Positions 8,512-49,121 of a DNA stretch of 64,000 bases are shown piece by piece. A program made the position numbers and the translations under genes. Numbering within the stretch: the first letter of the stretch is position 1; the number at the start of each line of letters is the position of its first letter. A model generated the notes under the pieces. It saw only the letters and a list, made by a program, of their open reading frames with translations, searched no databases and was not told the origin of the DNA. Source of the DNA: a virus; IMG/VR virus record IMGVR_UViG_3300049001_000044, positions 124,001 to 188,000 of that record; one strand, written 5' to 3'.

Positions 8512-8807
8512 GCGAGTTGAGCCCTCTCTTGAAGGATATCAATCAGTGCTGCTGAGTCTTTCATCCAACGAACGTACTCCACTTCAGTGAAGCCCAGGTA
8601 GTCGCGAAGGGTCAACCCACAGCCAGCTTCAGACTGATGCCACAGATCGACGAAGTTGTCGATGTTCTCTGCGAAGGCATCACCTTGCAGGCACTGTTCG
8701 ATAAAAGACGGATCGGTCTCGTAAGGTTTCAGCGCTGCGTCCAGCTCTGCGATCTTTTCCTCGGTCCATGGTTGATCCATGCCGATGAAGGGTGCGATCA
8801 AATTCAT
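8508..8807 (-). CDS. Hypothetical acidic protein
   Basis: 99 residues, helical and acidic. Contains LRDYLGFTEVEYVRWM, like small phage or plasmid proteins resembling antitoxin or HTH-adjacent helices, but no clear domain. Coupled to the Thg1 gene. Confidence 0.65.
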   Translation of the reverse strand: MNLIAPFIGMDQPWTEEKIAELDAALKPYETDPSFIEQCLQGDAFAENIDNFVDLWHQSEAGCGLTLRDYLGFTEVEYVRWMKDSAALIDILQERAQLA

Positions 8808-9592
8808 ACTTTGTCTCCAAACAGGAATTGATTAGGATTGACCAGCAGCTTGAGTTCAGGGAAAGTGGTTTCAGTACACGACCTCAGCACTGGGCCAGTA
8901 GGACGATGCGCCTCTGGGATTTTTGCCATCTGGTCAGAAGTCAGTTCGACTTCCTTCGTGACTCGATGAACGAAAGTACCATGCTTGAAGAAGGCAGGCA
9001 TGTCATCGAATGGATGTCCGATTTCTTCCAGCATTTTCTTCTTGCCTTCGCCATCCACACCATGCAGTTTGCGGCTGGAGAAGTGGGCCTGCGCTGCCAT
9101 CGAGATGGCATTCTTCACCGCGTCTTGCTGGCGCCATAGGTAGTTAAGGTATGCTTCGTTAAGGTCCTCAACTTGCCAAACGCGGCAGTCAAAGGTAGGG
9201 TAGGTGTGCTGCTTCTCAGGCAGGATGCCAGGTAGATTCTTCGTGAAGTAGCTGGTGGCGAGTGATGCCAGTACCGAGGTCAGCTTCTGGAATTTGCCAT
9301 CGAAGAGGTAGGTGCCAAGGTTGTCTTCTTCCACGTAGTAGCACAGCGAGATTTCGTCCGACTGAGTGTAGCCAACCAGAGCGTGGGTCTCTTCGACCAG
9401 GTACTTCGTGGTACCGATCATGAGGGCGCTCATGCGTTCGTCGTACGGACGGTTCAGACCCTTAGTGAAGGTGTGGAATGCCCGACCATCCAGACGAGCC
9501 ATGATCGGCTTACCCTTCACAGCTTTCCTTCCAGCTTCTGCCTGTTCGACTTCTTTCAGGCGATCACCCAGTGTGTCTTTGCTGTCGGTCAT
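8804..9592 (-). CDS. tRNA(His) guanylyltransferase-like 3'-5' polymerase (Thg1)
   Basis: 262 residues. Thg1 signatures are RLDGRAFHTFTKGL (residues about 33-46), with the metal-binding Asp, and GYTQSDEIS, with the second acidic pair. The family adds nucleotides to tRNA 5' ends in the 3'-5' direction and repairs truncated tRNAs. In a phage it may repair tRNAs cut by host nucleases, an inference. Length is normal for the family. Confidence 0.9.
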   Translation of the reverse strand: MTDSKDTLGDRLKEVEQAEAGRKAVKGKPIMARLDGRAFHTFTKGLNRPYDERMSALMIGTTKYLVEETHALVGYTQSDEISLCYYVEEDNLGTYLFDGKFQKLTSVLASLATSYFTKNLPGILPEKQHTYPTFDCRVWQVEDLNEAYLNYLWRQQDAVKNAISMAAQAHFSSRKLHGVDGEGKKKMLEEIGHPFDDMPAFFKHGTFVHRVTKEVELTSDQMAKIPEAHRPTGPVLRSCTETTFPELKLLVNPNQFLFGDKV

Positions 9593-23487: not shown

Positions 23488-23925
23488 TCAAAAGACGGTT
23501 TTGATTACGCCATTGCCAGTGTCAATCGAGATCTCTAACTGAATGGACATCTTGTTGTATTCGAACATGCGATAGTCATACCCAGCTTCCCACTCAACTG
23601 CCTGCTTGGTTGGAGGGCCTGCATGCCCATCAGGGTAGGTCCATGGCGAAGTGGGTTGGTAAGGGCAGTGGGTGAAGTCGTTATGGGTGTCGTCATGTTC
23701 TGCAGCCTTAAACCCTTCCAACCATTCCTTACTCTTGGGAGGTGGAGGAAGTGGCATCCAATGCGTGACCTCATCCCGCTCGAACCATCCACCGTTCGAG
23801 TCAAACGTTCTGTTCTTGGCGTCCCATTTAGCAGGCCAGACAGTAGGATGGTTTTGTGGATCAAACACCACTACCAACATCCCATCCTTTGTGGGGTACC
23901 CGTCCTTAACGTCGATCCAGTTCAT
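23488..23925 (-). CDS. DUF551-like protein
   Basis: 145 residues. The first half has W-x-D-V...VLVVVFDP...W and VTHWMPLPPPP, the pattern of DUF551 found in many phages, function unknown. The C-terminal half is rich in His, Trp and Pro. ATGA junction with coaD. Confidence 0.65.
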   Translation of the reverse strand: MNWIDVKDGYPTKDGMLVVVFDPQNHPTVWPAKWDAKNRTFDSNGGWFERDEVTHWMPLPPPPKSKEWLEGFKAAEHDDTHNDFTHCPYQPTSPWTYPDGHAGPPTKQAVEWEAGYDYRMFEYNKMSIQLEISIDTGNGVIKTVF

Positions 23926-24422
23926 TTGACTTTTGCTTTCAGTGCTTTCAGCGCGGCCTTAGGCAGGTACTTCTTCGCCACCTTTTCCCAACCATTGATC
24001 TTGACCATACCACGGATCATCGAGCTGGACACGGCGACGAGGTCTGGAGGTGGCATGACGAAGACAGTCGAAACCTCTGGCTCAATGGCAAAGTTTACCA
24101 TCTGCTGCCCATGCTCATACTCAAAGTCCACAACATTTCGCAGACCGCGAACAATAACGTCCGCGCCGAATTGCTTTGCGACGTTGGCAGTGAATGTGTT
24201 CTCTGGCAAGAAAGCAATGGTAATACCAGTCAGCCCAAGCTGTTCATTGATGCTATCCACCACTAAGTCGTAGCGCTCGTCATGATCGAAGAAGTACTTC
24301 TTGTCAGGGTTGTCAGCCACCAAGACGATAACCTCATGCGCCATCTTCTGAGCTTCCTTGATAACGTGAATGTGGCCTAGTGTGATGGGATCAAACGACC
24401 CACTAACTACTGCGATGCTCAT
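23922..24422 (-). CDS. coaD: Phosphopantetheine adenylyltransferase
   Basis: 166 residues with the full CoaD signature: SGSFDPITLGHIHVI (nucleotidyltransferase HxGH variant), VIVRGLRNVVDFEYE, and SSSMIRGM near the end. It makes dephospho-CoA from phosphopantetheine and ATP, the penultimate CoA step. Placed directly after the CoaE-like gene with overlap, so the last two steps of CoA synthesis are co-translated. Confidence 0.9.
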   Translation of the reverse strand: MSIAVVSGSFDPITLGHIHVIKEAQKMAHEVIVLVADNPDKKYFFDHDERYDLVVDSINEQLGLTGITIAFLPENTFTANVAKQFGADVIVRGLRNVVDFEYEHGQQMVNFAIEPEVSTVFVMPPPDLVAVSSSMIRGMVKINGWEKVAKKYLPKAALKALKAKVK

Positions 24423-24991
24423 TCGTGTTCTCCCACAAGGTATTCGTAGATCGCGTCACTAATTTCTTCGGCACATTCTTCTGGAGTGGATGAGGTGGTG
24501 TCGACGGTAATGTCGGCCATCTCCATCTTCTTCTCTTCGCTCATCTGGTTTGCGATAACAGACATGGCTTCTACCCTGCTCTTCTTACCCCGTGCGACCA
24601 CGCGATCAACGCGGGTGTCGAATGACGCAGTGATGTGGACGACCAAGTCAAACTCACCTTGCATGTTGGTTTCAAAGAGTAACGGGAACTCGACGAAGTT
24701 CATTCCCTCCATCGACAGCGCCTTACCCAACTTCATGCCAATCTTAAGTGAGGACTGGAGATTAACCATGTTGCGAATCTCGCGATCACTGAAGACCAAC
24801 TTACTGACGATTTCTCGATCAGTGGTTTGAAACTTTTCGTACAGCCAGTCCAACCATCCCTGCTCCGTGTACAGTTCATCTACGAACTTGTCCATTGAGT
24901 AGAAGTTGGCTCCTTCATAGAGTTGTTCCAGTTGCTTGACGATGGTGGATTTGCCTGCGCCAATCCCACCAGTGATCGCGATGTTCATCAT
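24419..24991 (-). CDS. coaE: Dephospho-CoA kinase-like protein
   Basis: 190 residues. Walker A in IAITGGIGAGKSTI (residues 4-17) is nearly the CoaE signature. A VEFPLLFET segment corresponds to the CoaE core VxxPLLFE, followed by a lid-like region and ANQMSEEKKMEMADI, as in CoaE (Q-M...K...AD). It would phosphorylate dephospho-CoA to CoA. A nucleoside monophosphate kinase is the alternative, but pairing with coaD favours CoaE. Confidence 0.8.
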   Translation of the reverse strand: MMNIAITGGIGAGKSTIVKQLEQLYEGANFYSMDKFVDELYTEQGWLDWLYEKFQTTDREIVSKLVFSDREIRNMVNLQSSLKIGMKLGKALSMEGMNFVEFPLLFETNMQGEFDLVVHITASFDTRVDRVVARGKKSRVEAMSVIANQMSEEKKMEMADITVDTTSSTPEECAEEISDAIYEYLVGEHE

Positions 24992-25299
24992 TCTCCGAAT
25001 TCCTTTTTCAGTCGTTCGTATTCTGCCTTGTCCCTTGCTACCCGCTCAGCCTTACGCTTCGCTTCCTTTGTAAGACGGGTCGCGAACTCTTGGTCCGTCT
25101 CTTCCCTCTTGACGTAGATTCGAGCGTAGGCGTAGTAGTGATCAGAATACGCCTCGCACTCTCTGTCGATGTCAAGGGTGGCGTCCTCACCATGCTCCTC
25201 GATGAGGGTTTGGATTTCCTTTAGAGCATCTTTCAGCTTGCCGTTGAGTGCGTACTTGACGTCATCGCGCGCAATGACGTCAATCATTTTCTTAGTCAC
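24988..25299 (-). CDS. Hypothetical charged protein (GTG start)
   Basis: 103 residues. GTG 25299 is chosen because GGAG lies 8 nt upstream; ATG 25287 is an alternative. The C-terminal half is a long charged helix rich in Lys, Arg and Glu. ATGA junction with coaE. Confidence 0.6.
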   Translation of the reverse strand: MTKKMIDVIARDDVKYALNGKLKDALKEIQTLIEEHGEDATLDIDRECEAYSDHYYAYARIYVKREETDQEFATRLTKEAKRKAERVARDKAEYERLKKEFGE

Positions 25300-25534
25300 G
25301 TCTCTTTCTCCAGTCAAAAGGGCGGACACCTGGCATCGCGTTCATTCTCGTCGCCAGCATGTGAGCATATTGTAACGCTTGTTCGTGGCAAGCAAAATCT
25401 CCGTTCACGACTAACGCTACGTCGTGAGCAAAGTCATGTGATTGAAGGACGACCAGTGGACCTTCTAGTCTGCGCCAGACGTCCACCTGCCACGGTCCTT
25501 GATCGTCTTCTACGTCCTCATGGTGATCACACAT
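25292..25534 (-). CDS. Hypothetical protein
   Basis: 80 residues with an acidic His-rich start (MCDHHEDVEDDQ) and a central pattern of strands and a helix. Coupled by TAATG to the kinase gene upstream. Function unknown. Confidence 0.65.
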   Translation of the reverse strand: MCDHHEDVEDDQGPWQVDVWRRLEGPLVVLQSHDFAHDVALVVNGDFACHEQALQYAHMLATRMNAMPGVRPFDWRKRRD

Positions 25535-26217
25535 TACTTCTTCTCCTTGTTCTGCTGGTCGTTGACGTACTTATTCCACTTCATCAGGGCAAGCGTCATG
25601 ATGCCAGGCAGATACTCGGCGTCAGGGACGGTGTTGATAACGCGAACTTCATCACACTCACTACCCAACAGGGCGGCTTCTTGGCGGAAGTACTGAGTGG
25701 TCAGCGCGCTGAATGGGATACTCTTGTCAGCGCGAGTAGCTTGGCGATCGTTGAGGATGCGCAGAGGAGTTTGGAACTCTGCTGCTACGATGTGGAAGCC
25801 GAACTGACCAGCAGTTCGGGCGTTCCTCAGATCGTTTACCCAACGAGTGCGCGATTTGCGGGTGACGTTCGTATTGTCCACGATCACCACGTCGTTGTTA
25901 TCACGGACTTGCAGCCACGAGGTAGTAACGAAATTGGAGAAGTCAGCACCCGCCTCATTGCAGAAGTCGAACGCCTTGCGGTAAAAGTCCACCGCTTCTT
26001 CGCGGCCAGTCGGGAAGTCGAACTTCATGTAGCGGAGATCGGGACCTCCGCACATCACACCATGTTCAGTGGCATGGAAGGCGTAGTAGGCAAGACGGCA
26101 GGTGTCCAACGAAAACACACCAACGTCTTGACCCGCATGATCAACCTTCAGCTGTTCGATGAAGGAGGATTTGCCGGAGCCCGAAGGGCCGATCAACAGG
26201 TAGGCTACTTTATTCAT
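25534..26217 (-). CDS. P-loop kinase of the polynucleotide-kinase type
   Basis: 227 residues. Walker A LIGPSGSGKSSF (8-19), a SLDTCR segment, and VVIVDNTNVTRKSRTRWV, the motif typical of AAA_33/PNK-like kinases. T4 Pnk phosphorylates 5'-OH RNA and DNA ends; a similar substrate is possible but unproven, and there is no phosphatase domain. Confidence 0.75.
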   Translation of the reverse strand: MNKVAYLLIGPSGSGKSSFIEQLKVDHAGQDVGVFSLDTCRLAYYAFHATEHGVMCGGPDLRYMKFDFPTGREEAVDFYRKAFDFCNEAGADFSNFVTTSWLQVRDNNDVVIVDNTNVTRKSRTRWVNDLRNARTAGQFGFHIVAAEFQTPLRILNDRQATRADKSIPFSALTTQYFRQEAALLGSECDEVRVINTVPDAEYLPGIMTLALMKWNKYVNDQQNKEKK

Positions 26218-26473
26218 TGTCTTTCCTATCTACGTTACCACGCACGCCTTGGTTCCAAAGTTCGCGCGTATTCACACCCACACCGCTTACGCTCTCATCG
26301 CAGTCTTCGCAGCCAACCATTGAGAACATTGCTTCGCCGAAACCCCTAGCGTTGCCGCCGCATTTGGTGCACTTGTTGTAGCCGATGATGGCGCACGAAT
26401 CACAAAGCCAGAACTTGTCATAGCCTTGGACAGTGCCGCCATGTTCTTCGCAGAACTTACCAGACTTTCTCAT
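26210..26473 (-). CDS. Zinc-ribbon protein
   Basis: 87 residues from ATG 26473 (ATGA junction with the HD gene). Three Cys pairs (CDSC, CTKC, CEDC) spaced 13-30 residues apart suggest two zinc ribbons. Function unknown. Confidence 0.65.
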   Translation of the reverse strand: MRKSGKFCEEHGGTVQGYDKFWLCDSCAIIGYNKCTKCGGNARGFGEAMFSMVGCEDCDESVSGVGVNTRELWNQGVRGNVDRKDNE

Positions 26474-27096
26474 TGCCATTCGACCAGCTCCCATTCCTTC
26501 ATCCACTCGTCGACACGAGCCAACTTCTCTGCTTGATCATCACTGACTCGACCGTGTTGATCGCTCAACAGCAAGTCCAACCAGGCACGATGGCCAACTT
26601 CACCCAGGCGTTGCATGAGGGCGGTCTTCAGAGCACGACGCTTGTCCTTGTTCTTCAGATCGAAGGGGACGTGATACTCGATCATCATCGCGATATTCGA
26701 GACATCTTGCAACGTGAAGCCCAGCAGCTCCTTCACCAACTCCATGTTCTGAGTTGCGTAGTCCACCCAGACACGAGCCGAAATCTGCTCATGACCATGG
26801 TAGGCACGATAGTTACCGCGTGCTTCGGAATACTTCTGGATTTCAGAAGGCGGTTTGCCCACGTCATGGAAGGTGTTTGCGACCAAGGTCAGCAGGCGTT
26901 GGCGATCCGAACGGTGGATGGCCAGATTTTCCATGTACCAGCGATTCAGCATTTTGGTGTGGACAGCGACGTTCGCTTCACGATGCCATGGCGAGTTCTC
27001 AACCGTGGCCTTCATGTTGGCCCACAGATCCGTCTCCTTGAACTTCGAGAAGAAGGATTCGAACCTTCGAACTGCCTCAGTGTAGGGTTGTGTCAT
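26470..27096 (-). CDS. HD-domain phosphohydrolase
   Basis: 208 residues. Metal-binding HD motifs are clear: NVAVHTKM, NTFHDVGKP (HD pair about residue 78), YHGHEQ and a later YHV and SDQHG. Such enzymes act on nucleotides or cyclic nucleotides; the substrate is not evident. Confidence 0.8.
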   Translation of the reverse strand: MTQPYTEAVRRFESFFSKFKETDLWANMKATVENSPWHREANVAVHTKMLNRWYMENLAIHRSDRQRLLTLVANTFHDVGKPPSEIQKYSEARGNYRAYHGHEQISARVWVDYATQNMELVKELLGFTLQDVSNIAMMIEYHVPFDLKNKDKRRALKTALMQRLGEVGHRAWLDLLLSDQHGRVSDDQAEKLARVDEWMKEWELVEWQ

Positions 27097-27601: not shown

Positions 27602-28049
27602 CTTTGACCTGGTCTTCACCGCAAATTTTGCCAGTGATTCGCTTCACAAGGACTTCCTGCTGCGAATAGGCTTCCAACTCCCATGGGCGATCCACGTAGA
27701 GAAGGCCCTCCGTTTTGAAGACCTCACCTTTCCAGATGAAGATGTCCTTGCCATCATCCCGCTCTACCTTCAGCGTTCCCTCGAGGAGTTGCTTGACGTG
27801 GACCATCTCATGAGCAAGGGTGGACATCGTTCGCTCAAAGCCCAGCTTTGAATCCAGACCAACACCACACGTCCCATTCAGCAGCCCTGAAACACCAGCG
27901 TATCCTCGATCCTTGCGAAGGTCTTTCTTGACGTAGATGATCACCTTATTGTCGAAGTGGTCGATCTCCAACTCTATGGCCAACATGTGGGCGAAGCCAT
28001 GGAGGAACTTGCGCTTGGCCGCGCTGCTGCCTTCCATTGTGATGATCAT
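27594..28049 (-). CDS. Zincin (HExxH) metalloprotease-like protein
   Basis: 151 residues. LAHEMVHVKQLL (about 79-90) contains HExxH, and WELEAY about 45 residues later supplies a possible third ligand, the layout of SprT-like or other small zincins. Substrate unknown. ATGA junction with the HD gene upstream. Confidence 0.7.
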   Translation of the reverse strand: MIITMEGSSAAKRKFLHGFAHMLAIELEIDHFDNKVIIYVKKDLRKDRGYAGVSGLLNGTCGVGLDSKLGFERTMSTLAHEMVHVKQLLEGTLKVERDDGKDIFIWKGEVFKTEGLLYVDRPWELEAYSQQEVLVKRITGKICGEDQVKVS

Positions 28050-28642
28050 GCTTCACCATACTGGGCAAGTTCCCACTTGATGTTTTCCTTCGCCAGCACT
28101 TCCATCTTTTCGAATTCCTTTGTGATGAAAATCCTGGACTGCAGTGCAGCTTGAAGGAAGGTGCAACGACCGTCGACGTAGGCATCATTGTTGAACTGGA
28201 TAAACTCACGGCGAATTTCGTTCTTGTAGTTCTCGTATCGTGCGGGCTTCGCAGCCAAGATCGCCATGTCCAAGTCCAGAACCAGCTCGGATTCTTGGAT
28301 GGTGGCTTTGTGGGTCTTGGTGTCTAAGATGATCTGTTCGATGGCGTTGATGTTGGTATTTGGGAACAGATCGTTGAAGTCATCTTCGTTCTGGGCGACG
28401 TGGGTCTTCATCAACATCACCGACAACTCTTCGTTCAGTGTAGTCCCTGGAATGTACACGATGTCGTGGTACATGAGGGCTAGAACTTGTTCGTCTGACA
28501 GCGGTAGGTTCATGTTCTGCGCCATGCAGAAGATGTCCTGGATATGACGCTCGTTGTGGTAGGCCCGGTGACACTCGCGATAGTGGTGGCCAACATGGGT
28601 AGCGTACCACTTGAAGTGTCGAGCTTTCTGGAACATGATCAT
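28046..28642 (-). CDS. HD-superfamily hydrolase
   Basis: 198 residues. YHNERHI, ALMYHDIVYI (HD pair) and LDLDMAIL match the pattern of predicted metal-dependent HD phosphohydrolases. Begins MIMFQKARHF; AGGA precedes the ATG. Early promoter upstream, with the stem-loop element B overlapping it. Confidence 0.75.
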   Translation of the reverse strand: MIMFQKARHFKWYATHVGHHYRECHRAYHNERHIQDIFCMAQNMNLPLSDEQVLALMYHDIVYIPGTTLNEELSVMLMKTHVAQNEDDFNDLFPNTNINAIEQIILDTKTHKATIQESELVLDLDMAILAAKPARYENYKNEIRREFIQFNNDAYVDGRCTFLQAALQSRIFITKEFEKMEVLAKENIKWELAQYGEA

Positions 28643-29362: not shown

Positions 29363-30048
29363 CGCAGCCCCTGCTCGTACAGGTACTTGGCGAGCTCCCT
29401 TCGCCGCTGGCGTCCGAGTCGAGTGTTCGGTCTGTAGTAGAAGTGGCCGAAGCCGGCAATGTCTTGCGACAGCTTGTTCTCGTCTTCGAGCTGGCCTTTA
29501 GAGAGCCAGAGCTTCCACAGGGGCATACCCGCATAAATCGGATCGCCATGATGCGTTAGGTTGAGGACGATGACGCGCCGTATGTTGCCGTTGTTCTGCA
29601 ACTTCCCTAGGAAGTCTTTGCTGATCGGAGAAGCGATCAGCACCAGGTGGTCCACGATGTGGTGAAAACGGGAGTACGCCATCGCTGTATGCGCAGCCAT
29701 CAACGAGCCATAGGAGTAGCCGATCAGGTTAAATTGGTCCGCATCCACCTGCTCCAACCCTTCAATCATCCACGTTTTCTCGTTGCCAGCGGTGTTGAGG
29801 CGCAAGTCTAAGGCAGAGCGAATGGCATCCCGTATCTGACCTTGCGTGCGTTTGCCGACCCACACATGCTTGATGCCAGCTTCCTGTAACGATGCAACCT
29901 GATCGGCGATGTACGAGCCGTTCAACCCGGCACCGCCCCAGTACACGGTACCACGCGGCCTTCCAACTTTGATCTTGATTGGTGTCTTGTCTGACTTGGG
30001 CGTAAGCTCAGCCTTTACGACCACGGGTTCAAACAGAGGGGTGGCCAT
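29359..30048 (-). CDS. Alpha/beta hydrolase, lipase-like
   Basis: 229 residues. The nucleophile elbow is GYSYGS, preceded by VDADQFNLI. Later THHGDP and GFGHFYY offer the catalytic Asp and His. The arrangement resembles lipase effectors (Tle type) carried beside PAAR proteins in type VI secretion islands. No signal peptide. Substrate untested. Confidence 0.7.
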   Translation of the reverse strand: MATPLFEPVVVKAELTPKSDKTPIKIKVGRPRGTVYWGGAGLNGSYIADQVASLQEAGIKHVWVGKRTQGQIRDAIRSALDLRLNTAGNEKTWMIEGLEQVDADQFNLIGYSYGSLMAAHTAMAYSRFHHIVDHLVLIASPISKDFLGKLQNNGNIRRVIVLNLTHHGDPIYAGMPLWKLWLSKGQLEDENKLSQDIAGFGHFYYRPNTRLGRQRRRELAKYLYEQGLR

Positions 30049-30049
30049 G

Positions 30050-30565
30050 TTAGGCCCCTTCCGGCATGATGGTGATCTTGATATTGGCCGGATCGCTCAT
30101 CTCGATCCTCTCCGTCTTGCCTTCGCCGTCAGTCCTGCCCTCGATGACCCTGCCTTCGCACTCGATGCTGTACCCACGATGCATGAGTATGTCGCCTGTT
30201 GCTTCGTCATGGAGAACGAATTGCTGATCGAAACCCTCGTTCGTCTTGCCTACCCACTGGCCGTTCTCCTCCACGAAGCGGATCGGTACTTCCTCGCCTG
30301 ATGTATTGGTTACACCGTCCTTGTCGTTCAGCGTAGAGATGAGCGGGCAACCACAGCTCGTCTTCATACCGTGCAGAACTTTGGCAACGCCGTTCACCTT
30401 CGAACGCTCGTATCCCTCTGCGATAACGCAGCCTTTCGAGCAGGATATCTTCGCGCCAACCACGGCGACTGGCCTACCCATACTCTTTACAAACTCGACG
30501 CCTTCCAGTACAGTTGCGCCACAAGCGGCGAAATCATCCTTACGAATCCAACCAATGATACGCAT
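30050..30565 (-). CDS. PAAR-domain protein
   Basis: 171 residues. CGATVLEG, GRPVAVVGAKISC, SKGCVIAEG and HGMKTSCGCPLIS reproduce the PAAR repeats. PAAR proteins cap the spike of type VI secretion systems and of some phage tails (T4 gp5.4). The C-terminal half (about 90-171) is an added domain of unknown role. AAGGAAACGA precedes the ATG. Confidence 0.8.
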   Translation of the reverse strand: MRIIGWIRKDDFAACGATVLEGVEFVKSMGRPVAVVGAKISCSKGCVIAEGYERSKVNGVAKVLHGMKTSCGCPLISTLNDKDGVTNTSGEEVPIRFVEENGQWVGKTNEGFDQQFVLHDEATGDILMHRGYSIECEGRVIEGRTDGEGKTERIEMSDPANIKITIMPEGA

Positions 30566-30634
30566 GGATCGTTTCCTTTCAATTTGACTTCGATCAAAAC
30601 CTCGGTTATTGTTGAGGTTAGTTCAATAATATCT

Positions 30635-30703
30635 CAGAGGTGACCCAAGGCGTTGCTAATGATCATATAGTACGCACAATACGGAGGTCTCTGAGCACCT
30701 CTG
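30635..30703. repeat. Long stem-loop element, copy C
   Basis: 8-bp arms (30635-30642 and 30696-30703), with the conserved 22 nt shared with copy B at 30680-30701. Sits between the terminator at 30719 and the PAAR gene. Confidence 0.65.
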
Positions 30704-30718
30704 GTAAGCCCAGAATGC

Positions 30719-30748
30719 AATAGAGGACACCATCGAAGGTCCTCTATT
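30719..30748 (-). terminator. Terminator-like hairpin
   Basis: Perfect 10-bp stem AATAGAGGAC overlapping the stop of the small gene ending at 30747. Just upstream of element C. Confidence 0.6.
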
Positions 30749-30884
30749 AGAACATCTTTTCTACCAGATGTTCGCCCATTGCGTAGATGATATGGGCCAT
30801 TGCACGACCGTCCACCATTTGGCAATGATCCAGCACTGCAATGGCCAGAACTACTGACACGATGGGGAGGATAAATCCGCGCAC
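30747..30884 (-). CDS. 45-residue membrane protein (GTG start)
   Basis: GTG 30884 opens a frame with one transmembrane helix (ILPIVSVVLAIAVL) and a helical tail. AAGG lies about 10 nt upstream. Ends inside the terminator stem, so a marginal but plausible gene. Confidence 0.45.
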   Translation of the reverse strand: MRGFILPIVSVVLAIAVLDHCQMVDGRAMAHIIYAMGEHLVEKMF

Positions 30885-30886
30885 GA

Positions 30887-30997
30887 TCAATAAGCCTTGT
30901 GGGATACTTGGGCTTTGGCTTGGACCGAGATTCCTTGCGTGTACAACACAATGCCAAATGCGAGGAAGGACAACAAGATTATTCGGTTCATGTTCAT
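30887..30997 (-). CDS. 36-residue exported or membrane microprotein
   Basis: MNMNRIILLSFLAFGIVLYT is a signal peptide or anchor, followed by ISVQAKAQVSHKAY. Ideal ribosome site GGAGGTGAAC before the ATG. Confidence 0.6.
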   Translation of the reverse strand: MNMNRIILLSFLAFGIVLYTQGISVQAKAQVSHKAY

Positions 30998-31086
30998 GTT
31001 CACCTCCGAGATTTAGAATAATTTGATTGTATTACTCCTAGGAAATTTGGTGTTGACACCCATCAAACACGGAACTTGCGAACGAA

Positions 31087-31112
31087 AAAGGACTTCCCTA
31101 GGAAAGTCCTTT
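31087..31112 (-). terminator. Intrinsic terminator
   Basis: AAAGGACTT stem, 8-nt loop, TTTTTCG tail on the minus strand, downstream of the gene ending at 31123. Confidence 0.85.
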
Positions 31113-31122
31113 GCTCGAGGGG

Positions 31123-31845
31123 TTACTTCTTGGCTTTTTCCTGTTGAGCCCAGTACTCCCGCAGGAGTTTGAGATTCCACTCGTACTTGATGGGGTAGCC
31201 CTCCTTCTTGACCTCGCCGTCATTCCACTTTGGGGGTTTTCCCATCGTCATCCCCACCTTCAGGTTATTCGACAGGCAATCCGCAAAGGGAGACTTCGGG
31301 CCGACCCACGTCTTGGCGAGCTTGCCTTTCTTGTTGACCCTGCCCAGCCACAAGATGACGTCGTCGATCCCCTTGAGTTGGGCGCGGTAGCAGGGCTCGA
31401 CCGCCTTGGAGTAGAGTTTTGTCAGATGCTCCTCATAGTCCGCAGCACCCATAAGCGGCATAGGTCCCACTCGCGCCATGTACTCCCAATGGTTGGGTTC
31501 ATTGGGGTCGATCTTACGTGGGTGCAAGTCCTGGTCGCGGCGCTCGGGCCTGTCGATGATGGCACTTTGACACTCCATCTTCTTCATGAGAACGCCCTTG
31601 TAGCAGTACGTTGCCTTCTCACGATTGTTCGTCAGCTCCATGTACGTGGTCAAACTGTCGGGCTGTTTGTTCGTGCACACATAGGGTGTGCCCTTGCAGA
31701 CGACGGAAAACATCTCGCTATTGGCATCCTCCTGGGCCGCCTGTTGAAACACCTGGGGCGGAATTTGGCGGGCTTTGACGACACTGACGAGAGACGGCTG
31801 CGCTTGGGCGACGCCGACCACGAAGAGCAATGCGAGGGCTTTCAT
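31123..31845 (-). CDS. Exported protein with TonB-C-like domain
   Basis: 240 residues. Signal peptide MKALALLFVVGVAQAQ. The C-terminal 110 residues (AVEPCYRAQL, VILWLGRVNKKGKLAKTWVG, FADCLSNNLK and then MGKPPKW) resemble the TonB C-terminal or AgmX-like fold of periplasmic proteins, with paired cysteines. Function in the phage unknown. Confidence 0.6.
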   Translation of the reverse strand: MKALALLFVVGVAQAQPSLVSVVKARQIPPQVFQQAAQEDANSEMFSVVCKGTPYVCTNKQPDSLTTYMELTNNREKATYCYKGVLMKKMECQSAIIDRPERRDQDLHPRKIDPNEPNHWEYMARVGPMPLMGAADYEEHLTKLYSKAVEPCYRAQLKGIDDVILWLGRVNKKGKLAKTWVGPKSPFADCLSNNLKVGMTMGKPPKWNDGEVKKEGYPIKYEWNLKLLREYWAQQEKAKK

Positions 31846-35258: not shown

Positions 35259-36827
35259 TTAGAGAATTGAGAAAGGCACAGGATCACCGCCGAAGTGGTC
35301 AAAGTTCGGTTCGGTTTCGTCTGCGTCAGGAGCCATCGTTTCGTACACGAGCTCTCTGGCCTTTTCATCGTAGTGGGAAAGGCGATGCATTAGCTTCATG
35401 ACCACTGCCATTGCCATGATGGTATCGTCAGTCGCGCCGATCTTCGCCTCATACGATCCACCTTTGGCCACGAAGTTCTTCAGTTCGAAGAGTAAGATGT
35501 CGGAGTTGATCTTCAAACCGTTGTTAATTCTCTCAACCAAGTTTTTCATCTGCATGCAGGTGACGAGCTTAGATTTACCGGTCGTGTAGGTACCGAACTT
35601 GCCTGGTGTTTCGTCGTACCGCTCTACGCCATCCAAGTAGGTACCACCGTCTGGGCTATCATCGTTTTGGATCATGGCGACTAGCGCTTCACCCACACCG
35701 TTTCGCTCAAAAGACCACACAACTTCAGCGCGCCGACGATTTTGATCTGGCTTTCTCAGCTCTTTCAACAGCCACTTGATCTTAGCATAGATGAGAGGGA
35801 TGTTGACGTTATTCAGTCTCAGCTCAGCGACTTGTTCCAAGCTTGGGAACTCCACAACCTGAATTGCAGTGAAGTCTTTTCCGTTACCTGTGGCCGGATC
35901 AACGCCGACGAGATAAGTTTTGTTTGCTCCACCGACGTCTTTCCAGAACCTGAAACCCATCTCTTCACGGATGTGCGGCTTAGCACGCATCGCATGCAGG
36001 CAACGTGAGTCAATGAGCAACGCCTCGCTAGAAAGGAATTCGCAGTCAAGTTCTTGGCGGGCCTTAACCGGACCAAGTTTGCCGATCATTTCGTCGTAGT
36101 ACTTTTGCTCCCGGTCTGGGTGCTGATACCACATCGCCCTGATAGGTTTGAAACTGTTTTGACCACTGTTTGCGCCTCGCCACAGCTGCGCGAAGAGGTC
36201 AGAGTCGCCGTTAGGGGTCGAGGTTAGAACGAACTTACCACCAGTCGATAGAGACGGTGCAAGCGATGCCCACATCTCGTCTTGAATACGACGAGATAGG
36301 AACGCGATCTCGTCAATGAAGAGGAAGGATGGCGAGCTACCACGACCTGTCTTTTCCGAAGTTGCTTCGCACTTGATCTTGGCGTTGTTGTCGAACTCGA
36401 TAGAAGTACGTGAGTAGTATTTGCAGCCTGGCTTGATCCACTCTGGCAATTCCTCATACGCAAACTTGATACGAGACATAATTTCGGTTGCGTGAGCCAT
36501 TGCTTTCGACGCAATGATGCAGAGTTTGGGTTCGTCTTTGTTGGCAAAGCAGGTGAGCCAGATAACGTACATCGCAACGACGGTGGTTTTACCCATCTGA
36601 CGTGAGGCAAGAATGATCGTGTCCTTATTGTTGTGGATGGACGTGATCATCTCTTTCTGGTACTCATAGAGGATCATTGGCACGGCGCCCTTTACAGGGT
36701 CAACGACCATGATGTAGTTTTCGATGAAGTAGATTGGGTCGCGCTGACACCGCACGAGCTCTTGGATGAGCTCAGGCGTGTACTCGTTGGTAGAGTTTGG
36801 GCGCTTAATCGCTGGATTAGCGGGCAT
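35259..36827 (-). CDS. 17: Terminase large subunit gp17
   Basis: 522 residues. Walker A SRQMGKTT (75-82), Walker B FLFIDE, coupling motif TSTP, and nuclease residues in GVDPATGNGKDFT, VVWSFERNGVG and TDDTIMAMAV identify gp17. It pumps DNA into the prohead and cuts concatemers. Late promoter 60 nt upstream. The gp16-like gene is separated from it by six inserted genes. Confidence 0.97.
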   Translation of the reverse strand: MPANPAIKRPNSTNEYTPELIQELVRCQRDPIYFIENYIMVVDPVKGAVPMILYEYQKEMITSIHNNKDTIILASRQMGKTTVVAMYVIWLTCFANKDEPKLCIIASKAMAHATEIMSRIKFAYEELPEWIKPGCKYYSRTSIEFDNNAKIKCEATSEKTGRGSSPSFLFIDEIAFLSRRIQDEMWASLAPSLSTGGKFVLTSTPNGDSDLFAQLWRGANSGQNSFKPIRAMWYQHPDREQKYYDEMIGKLGPVKARQELDCEFLSSEALLIDSRCLHAMRAKPHIREEMGFRFWKDVGGANKTYLVGVDPATGNGKDFTAIQVVEFPSLEQVAELRLNNVNIPLIYAKIKWLLKELRKPDQNRRRAEVVWSFERNGVGEALVAMIQNDDSPDGGTYLDGVERYDETPGKFGTYTTGKSKLVTCMQMKNLVERINNGLKINSDILLFELKNFVAKGGSYEAKIGATDDTIMAMAVVMKLMHRLSHYDEKARELVYETMAPDADETEPNFDHFGGDPVPFSIL

Positions 36828-47261: not shown

Positions 47262-49121
47262 TTACTTCATCGATGCGCCGGTAGACAGCACGCGCATTGG
47301 GATGTAGATGAATTCAGCCGCTTTGACTGGCTTGATTGCAACGTCCAGGTACAGCTCGTTGTTCTCAATGCGTTGTGGGGTGTTGTTCGACTCATCGCAC
47401 AGGGTGACGAAGTCGTACAGACCGCGCTTAGCCAACACGTCGTTCAGCAAACCATCCGCTGCCGACTTGAGGTTGTCACGAGTGATCTTGTCGTTAGGTT
47501 CGAAGACGAATGGGAATGCGCCTTTACGCAATGCGCGCTTCAGGTACATAACCAGACGAACAACGTTCACGCGGTCCAGAGCCGAAGCGCCTGGTGCGGA
47601 AGTCTTCTGACCCCAGATCAACAGACCTTGTCCTGGGAAGAACACGATCGGGTTGACGTTCTTACCGAACTCATACAGGTTATCGCGCTGACCCTGGGAG
47701 AGATTGCTCTCAACGAAGGTGGTTGCGGTACCGAGGGTGCCAGATACGAAGCCAACGGTTTGGATGCCAGTTACGACACCGCGACGTGCACCTGCTGGAG
47801 CGAACCATACGTACGACTGGTTGTCGCTGTAAGCGTAAGTGCGGAGTGCGATACCCGAAGGTGCGCAGACAACGTTACGGCCATCGAGGTTGGAAGCCAG
47901 ACCCCATGGGAAGTAGTACGCGACGTCATTCGACGAGACACGCTCAGAGGTCATCGACCAAACTGCGGTCTGCTCAGGGGTCTTGTTGACTGGAGTGTCA
48001 GCGATTACGAATGCTTCTTCGTTCACGTCTACGGACAGAGCGACGAGGTCATCAACAACTTCTGGGAAGCCAGGAGCAACGATGAGGTTGTACTCGTACA
48101 TTTCCGAACGTACTTCGGTGTTCGAATTGATTTCTGCTGCAAGAGCAGTTGCGATTGCTACACGCTTAGCTGCATCGTTCGCGCCCAGTGGGTTGAACAG
48201 ATTCACAGGCTGCAGGGTGAAGCGGAACATATCACCAGCTGCGAAAGCGACATCGCCCGCATTGATGAGGAAGTTCACGTAGTTGTTGTCGTAAGGAACA
48301 CCAACCAGACCATTCGAGGTTTGACCAGATGCCGAACCGCTGACTTCGTAATCAGTGTCAGAGATAAAGGTGATAGTCCAAGTCTCGTTTGCAACAGGCG
48401 AGGAAGCCAGGAGCGAAGAGTCAGGAAGGATGTTGACCATCTTACCGTTACCAATGCGCTCGAGTTCTTCGGAGGTGTACACCAGATCGAACTGGAAGTA
48501 GTCGTCCTCGTTGAATGGAACCGAACCTTCAGTGATGGTGAAGTTGACCTTCGTCGAAATGAAGTCTGCGTCAAGGCTGCCGGTACCGATGATACCCGAA
48601 ACAGAACCAACGACGGTGTAATTCGTGGAGCTAGTGAATACAACGCTGATTGTTTCTGGACGAACGAATGCCGATGCTGCGACGATGTGACCGATCGTAC
48701 CATTGCCGATACCGAACAGAACTGCATCGGACGCAACAGGGGTACCAACGCCGACGAACTGTTCAGTTGCATCAGTGAGGTCCACGTTTGCGCGAACGAC
48801 GTATGCACGGTTACCAACGCTAATGAACTGATTCAGAGCCATCAAACCGTATTCATTGCGAGCATCACCGTGGAACTCGTTGCCACCGGAGTCTTTCCAG
48901 AAGTAAGGAACACCGTAGAGCGATACCGACTGACCAAGAGAGGTCACGGTTCGGACTACCGAGTGTTCGTTTGTGCCAGCCGCAGGTGTTACACCATTTG
49001 GCTGAAGCTTGCCCTTACGGGTTGCCACGAAAAAAAGTGGCACGGTTGGGGCTGATGCTGGGATGTAGAACGAATCGTCTACGACGGTTACGCTTACACC
49101 TGCGCTAACTAGCGAAGCCAT
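47262..49121 (-). CDS. 18: Tail sheath protein gp18
   Basis: 619 residues. The N-terminus (SLVSAGVSVTVVDDSFYIP followed by ASAPTVPLFFVAT) and the C-terminal contractile core, with RVNVVRLVMYLKRALRKGA and ENNELYLDVAIKPVKAAEF, match T4 sheath proteins. A large inserted middle (about 120-310) has internal repeat-like units with GSVSGIIGTGSLD and GSASGQTSNGLV. Contraction drives the tube through the cell envelope. Confidence 0.93.
   Translation of the reverse strand: MASLVSAGVSVTVVDDSFYIPASAPTVPLFFVATRKGKLQPNGVTPAAGTNEHSVVRTVTSLGQSVSLYGVPYFWKDSGGNEFHGDARNEYGLMALNQFISVGNRAYVVRANVDLTDATEQFVGVGTPVASDAVLFGIGNGTIGHIVAASAFVRPETISVVFTSSTNYTVVGSVSGIIGTGSLDADFISTKVNFTITEGSVPFNEDDYFQFDLVYTSEELERIGNGKMVNILPDSSLLASSPVANETWTITFISDTDYEVSGSASGQTSNGLVGVPYDNNYVNFLINAGDVAFAAGDMFRFTLQPVNLFNPLGANDAAKRVAIATALAAEINSNTEVRSEMYEYNLIVAPGFPEVVDDLVALSVDVNEEAFVIADTPVNKTPEQTAVWSMTSERVSSNDVAYYFPWGLASNLDGRNVVCAPSGIALRTYAYSDNQSYVWFAPAGARRGVVTGIQTVGFVSGTLGTATTFVESNLSQGQRDNLYEFGKNVNPIVFFPGQGLLIWGQKTSAPGASALDRVNVVRLVMYLKRALRKGAFPFVFEPNDKITRDNLKSAADGLLNDVLAKRGLYDFVTLCDESNNTPQRIENNELYLDVAIKPVKAAEFIYIPMRVLSTGASMK

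Follow-up and report, generated by a model that had tools for sequence, protein, structure and literature searches.

The region analysed here, referred to as the window, is a stretch of 64,000 nucleotides that runs from base 124001 to base 188000 of a virus record of 343,229 bases. Its sequence places genes for a large terminase, a tail sheath protein, UvsX, gp32 and the ribonucleotide reductase NrdA in the window, and by these predicted hallmarks the source genome is that of a phage. On the minus strand lie two neighbouring genes (Table 1) predicted to encode the last two enzymes of coenzyme A (CoA) synthesis, with coaE upstream of coaD. An earlier note on this DNA had proposed just such an adjacent pair, and both reading frames are confirmed, the stop of one and the start of the other sharing an ATGA. 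Co-translation, which the same note had put forward, is suggested by this overlap; taken alone the overlap is weak evidence, since almost every gene of this stretch overlaps a neighbour. What argues for a pairing beyond chance is that it is kept in a diverged relative and recurs, in adjacent or fused form, in other phages (see below). The small open reading frame directly upstream of coaE matched no known family, and scans for promoters and terminators yielded site numbers no higher than in shuffled sequence.

Table 1. Features discussed in the text. Positions are those of the window, except in the last line, where they are those of the whole virus record.
Feature	Position	Strand	Remarks
DUF551 protein, directly downstream of coaD	23488..23925	minus	PF04448; ATGA overlap; kept in L001
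CoaD, predicted pantetheine-phosphate adenylyltransferase (PPAT)	23922..24422	minus	166 aa; TIGR01510, PDB matches, residues
coaE/coaD start/stop overlap, ATGA	24419..24422	minus	4 nt; direct sequence reading
CoaE, predicted dephospho-CoA kinase (DPCK)	24419..24991	minus	190 aa; PF01121, TIGR00152, AF2 fold, residues
113-aa open reading frame, directly upstream of coaE	24988..25329	minus	ATGA overlap; kept in L001
HD-superfamily hydrolase, proposed third module member	28046..28642	minus	198 aa; phrog_19425
Large terminase	35259-36827		related to terminases from other giant-phage records
Tail sheath	47262-49121		
NAD-salvage pair: NAMPT-type phosphoribosyltransferase and NMN adenylyltransferase/Nudix	~76217-77731 and 79206-80339	minus	outside the window

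The window CoaD is, as predicted from its sequence, a pantetheine-phosphate adenylyltransferase. It scores 143 bits (E = 7e-42) against NCBIfam TIGR01510, for which the curated cut-off is 103.3, and 34 of its 35 sequence matches in the PDB are named phosphopantetheine adenylyltransferase. The active-site motifs are all found (S/T-x-GH, Lys, RGLR, D, E and SSS, the last at S132-S134), and every active-site position is present: S9, F10, H17, K41, R92, G93, R95, D99, E103, S132 and S133. These catalytic positions are almost invariant among 80 phage CoaDs. A tree of phage and cellular CoaDs resolved no cellular source of the window enzyme.

The assignment of CoaE had leaned on the segments GGIGAGKST and PLLFE, both of which are present, and it holds in the profile searches that had been suggested as a check on the two genes, where each exceeds the cut-offs of its curated models. 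The kinase reaches 87.1 bits with Pfam PF01121 (cut-off 27) and passes NCBIfam TIGR00152 narrowly, its 66.3 bits standing only 0.75 bit above the cut-off of 65.55. An AlphaFold (AF2) model built from a 43-sequence alignment has a pLDDT of 96.1. When this model is compared with the PDB using Foldseek, ranks 1-30 are all dephospho-CoA kinase structures, headed by T. thermophilus TT1252, deposited under its locus name (E = 6e-14), and including at rank 26 the kinase part of mouse CoA synthase (2f6r). The first nucleotide kinase, an adenylate kinase, follows at rank 31 with an E-value of 6e-7, about seven orders of magnitude behind the best match. Mutagenesis of mycobacterial CoaE found Lys14, Asp32, Leu114 and Arg140 to be essential or important (PMC3019153). 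The window enzyme, at around 22-34% identity to cellular ones, keeps the equivalents K14, D34, L104 and R130, and K14, D34 and R134 are invariant in all 23 CoaD-linked phage CoaEs found.

Two features that are typical of cellular CoaE, though not known to be essential, are missing. The HP motif (H in 84% and P in 90% of the cellular set) gives way to S81-L82, and the conserved asparagine near the C terminus (N165, 97% of the cellular set) to T165. Taken together with the marginal TIGR00152 score, with weak PHROG matches to thymidylate, dNMP and guanylate kinases (dNMP/thymidylate E ~2e-7 or worse) and with the carriage of dNMP kinases by many phages, these losses could be read to mean that the kinase has come to use a different acceptor, such as a deoxynucleoside monophosphate, and that its place beside coaD is incidental. 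We regard this as very unlikely. CoaE is the best family in Pfam, NCBIfam and Foldseek alike; the T4 gp1 dNMP kinase has neither an equivalent of the CoaE catalytic residue D34 nor the PLLFE segment; and the clade to which the window CoaE belongs includes chains fused to CoaD. The HP motif, moreover, is lost from nearly all CoaD-linked phage CoaEs, the fused ones included, so that its loss does not single out the window enzyme. An identity as a nucleotide kinase was rejected on profiles, fold and the gene fusion to CoaD, and membership of the phage dNMP kinases on the weakness of the PHROG matches and the lack of shared CoaE residues in T4 gp1.

Profiles, modelled fold and residues agree that the window CoaE is a predicted dephospho-CoA kinase. 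The earlier note had named beforehand two findings that would count against the pair, namely a better fit of the kinase to a nucleotide kinase family and inactive residues in the CoaD site; neither was seen, and the identification of CoaD and CoaE therefore stands. The two proteins resemble bacterial CoaD (TIGR01510) and CoaE (PF01121/TIGR00152) in full-length homology, fold and catalytic residues. They differ from them in that their genes are adjacent and overlapping, in the absence of the HP motif and N165 from CoaE, and in a few additional residues near the C terminus of CoaD. A separate reading of the genes as anti-phage defence was also discarded: CoaE drew only weak matches in PADLOC, and CoaD drew none.

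A second virus contig, L001, encodes homologues of both enzymes, 57% and 77% identical in amino acid sequence to those of the window. There, too, coaE precedes coaD, though one additional small gene separates them, and gp32 and uvsX lie alongside. In this comparison synonymous sites are at or close to saturation, whereas replacement sites are not (dN/dS of about 0.05 for CoaD; pN 0.28 and pS 0.79, the latter saturated, for CoaE), which argues for purifying selection on both genes. Large phage genomes can hold isolated metabolic passengers, and the pair might on that general ground be regarded as functionless host genes, decaying or picked up by accident. With strong purifying selection, intact residues, an order kept in the diverged L001 and recurrent fusions elsewhere, such an origin is barely credible here.

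In order to place the pair among other phages, viral contigs were scanned with an alignment of phage CoaDs. At least 157 CoaD loci were confirmed, and 80 of these, forming 62 clusters at 80% identity, were examined. In 23 of the 80 a gene for CoaE lies no more than 3 kb from that for CoaD, often with an overlap of a few bases, and junctions of ATGA or TAATG type recur among the adjacent pairs. The remaining 57 loci have no CoaE within 3 kb, a point that tells against the two-step reading given below, since CoaD must often be of use where no phage CoaE is close by. Single-sequence scans of the viral contigs for CoaE and HD proteins (see below) brought nothing new.

At ten of the examined loci the two activities are joined in a single frame, as CoaE-CoaD in L157, L158, L159 and L161 and as CoaD-CoaE in L207, L217, L222, L225, L231 and L232. 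Eight fused chains, covering all fusion types, were scored against curated libraries. L157, L159, L161, L217 and L222 score above the curated cut-offs for CoaD and CoaE alike; L232 exceeds that for CoaD and passes PF01121, just missing TIGR00152 (61.4 against 65.55). In the CoaE tree the window, L001 and the four CoaE-CoaD fusions fall in a phage-only clade of ten (support 98/93), and the CoaD-CoaE fusions group apart, in a clade of their own, in both the CoaE (98/95) and the CoaD tree (99/100). The simplest reading of these trees is that CoaD and CoaE were joined on two separate occasions, in opposite orders. Terminases of two of the fusion-bearing phages are 40-42% identical to that of the window. 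Since giant-phage relatives fuse the two activities in either order, it appears that phages have repeatedly assembled a CoA synthase of their own. The 735-kb phage LR756501 also has the two genes side by side, CoaD before CoaE, and its CoaE groups with Bacteroidota enzymes and not with that of the window; this pair is the closest instance in INPHARED, where neither fusion type found a full-length match.

The eukaryotic CoA synthase COASY (PPAT-DPCK) likewise unites both activities, and the phage CoaD-CoaE fusions share its domain order. The window, in contrast, holds two genes and no single COASY-like polypeptide, its fused relatives have the reverse order (CoaE-CoaD), and the CoaD parts of the phage chains match the bacterial TIGR01510. 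The phage enzymes may be seen as compact counterparts of COASY in viruses of prokaryotes.

A few records met in these searches deserve separate mention. In L038 (G003, a 170-kb virus record) CoaD is followed, with a 7-nt overlap, by a P-loop protein that resembles a diverged CoaE but is without the PLLFE segment. A coaD has been reported for Microcystis phage PhiMa05 (PMC8093824). We set this PhiMa05/MaAM05 instance aside because the coaD concerned (L026; MW495066.1, 33430-39843) is flanked by rplA, rplK, nusG, secE and tRNA-Trp and is likely to be bacterial DNA. Several short or host-named Listeria, Enterococcus, Salmonella and Staphylococcus 'phage' records with CoaD or CoaE also resemble host chromosomal DNA, so that counts of these genes in phages would be inflated by their inclusion.

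Within the phage genome, neither a CoaBC-type flavoprotein nor a pantothenate kinase of type III (CoaX), the type that the search covered, was found, nor was a gene for a carrier protein. An effect of the pair on CoA would therefore depend on 4'-phosphopantetheine made elsewhere. Two acetyltransferase-like genes are possible users of CoA in the phage. The NAMPT-family and NMN adenylyltransferase/Nudix genes listed in Table 1 lie about 1.5 kb apart, and a NAMPT-family gene is present in 22 of 33 CoaD-bearing virus records, that of the window included; a role of the CoA pair in cofactor maintenance is therefore plausible.

We put at about 0.85 the probability that the window pair is a working end-piece of CoA synthesis, made from one message, which converts host 4'-phosphopantetheine to CoA as part of a cofactor-maintenance kit with NAD salvage. 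CoaD would combine 4'-phosphopantetheine with ATP to give dephospho-CoA, which CoaE would then phosphorylate to CoA. That the kinase acts on the product of CoaD is suggested by sister phages, which hold both domains in one chain. The overlap of coaE and coaD would allow a single message to yield the two proteins at roughly equal levels. In the infected cell the phage would draw on 4'-phosphopantetheine of the host, since no genes for the preceding steps were found in its own genome, and the CoA pool would be kept up or raised; a raised supply, in the view of the earlier note, would redirect host metabolism. The CoA and NAD-salvage pairs may thus be parts of a wider kit.

A different use of CoaD is suggested by work on the E. 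coli PPAT, which caps pppA-RNA in vitro, with evidence in vivo pointing the same way (PMC10761072). The phage enzyme might mainly cap 5'-pppA transcripts with phosphopantetheine, yielding CoA-RNA, so that the pair would serve RNA modification and not metabolism. This is highly improbable: the RNA reaction is some 280-fold less efficient than dephospho-CoA synthesis (PMC10761072), and a dephospho-CoA kinase that is co-conserved or even fused would be left unexplained.

The end-piece reading may extend to a third gene. The gene for the HD-superfamily hydrolase of Table 1 shares the strand of coaE and lies 3 kb upstream of it, and the protein is a homologue of the C-terminal domain in a 386-aa CoaD-HD fusion from LR756500. 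Members of this HD family are also joined to CoaD in L191/L192 and to CoaE in L169. An 801-kb megaplasmid of Variovorax sp. PBL-E5 (L236) encodes a CoaE-HD chain that is 38% identical over its full length to that of L169; coaD comes next, and the two genes share an ATGA. The family occurs in 10 of the 33 CoaD-bearing virus records. Leaving the window aside, HD lies within 3 kb of CoaD in five of the nine records with both, against about 0.4 expected by position (P ~2e-5), a figure that is optimistic because the HD profile was partly built from those loci. The AF2 model of the HD protein has a pLDDT of 94.6, and a structure search with it gave only remote PDE/HD fold matches, with E-values above 0.01.

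Two side observations concern these neighbourhoods. The megaplasmid genes sit a few kilobases from a DpdB-like gene and a CRISPR Cas6e gene. In the window, a P-loop kinase and an HD protein encoded separately at 25534-26217 and 26470-27096 (minus strand) match the two halves of the 343-residue phrog_6931, a further case of a split/fused pair, here next to the CoA genes.

E. coli acyl carrier protein phosphodiesterase is itself an HD-superfamily enzyme. It is tempting, if decidedly speculative, to suppose that giant phages and megaplasmids share a mobile HD/CoaE/CoaD module, its parts separate or joined in various ways, in which the hydrolase would release 4'-phosphopantetheine, with acyl carrier protein of the host as one possible source, for conversion to CoA by the CoA synthase. 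If so, the phage would at one stroke halt lipid synthesis in the host and restore CoA, beside its salvage of NAD.

The hydrolase also enters a reading of the locus as a counter-defence or repair module, in which the CoA and NAD-salvage genes would restore cofactors depleted by immunity while HD supplies or recycles a CoA intermediate, such as 4'-phosphopantetheine from holo-acyl carrier protein. The NAD-salvage pair, the frequency of NAMPT-family genes in CoaD-bearing records, the fusions of HD to CoaE or CoaD and the E. coli phosphodiesterase all lend themselves to this idea, but we know of no phage defence that depletes CoA. The HD protein has no Pfam acyl-carrier-phosphodiesterase match and resembles PDE/HD folds only remotely, its family is found in under a third of the CoaD-bearing records, and metabolic genes are abundant in giant phages anyway. 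There is a precedent in other phages, in which the reconstitution of NAD+ against NAD-depleting defence is established (PMC12774641). On balance we think a counter-defence role unlikely. The NAD+ reconstitution pathways (NARP) resemble the end-piece reading in that a phage rebuilds a host cofactor, and the present genome has both NAMPT-type and NMNAT/Nudix genes; CoA, in contrast, is a different cofactor. A tie of the CoA pair to the anti-NAD-depletion strategies of other phages is conceivable but unsupported.

Sizeable as is the share of all enzymes that require CoA, phage control of this cofactor has to our knowledge hardly been studied. Both genes have been met in phages before. Here coaD and coaE are named among viral auxiliary genes of snow viromes (PMC11097641), coaE is noted in Xanthomonas phage X1 (PMC13384950), and Caulobacter and Brevundimonas jumbo phages carry CoaD or CoaE; the passages concerned describe no overlapping pairs, fused CoA synthases or link to HD. 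CoaE was not found in the annotated phages Bambus, BL47 and Mx1. The window pair alone is thus a modest finding, as both genes are known phage auxiliary genes, and novelty rests on the fusions and HD links seen among its relatives, of which we found no description in the open-access papers searched. An overlap in one phage and two separate, opposite-order fusions elsewhere suggest that phages repeatedly benefit from linking the two steps. The linkage opens a direct test of what limits CoA in infected cells and of whether the linked HD hydrolase feeds the pathway.

Two further features of the genome are unconnected with CoA. At least 16 proteins, encoded at 38373-58589 of the window and at 29519-31536 and 63434-64237 of the genome, start with an MRFK(D/Q/T/S/A)(Y/F)(L/I)xE-like leader, and several of them form a tandem paralogous array (phrog_11975, 12810 and 15932). 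Internal head proteins of T4 bear a capsid-targeting leader with an LxE/IxE site for the prohead protease, which the MRFK leader resembles. Finally, a Thg1-like tRNA-His guanylyltransferase is encoded at 8804-9592 of the window (minus strand), matching PF04446 with 104 bits.
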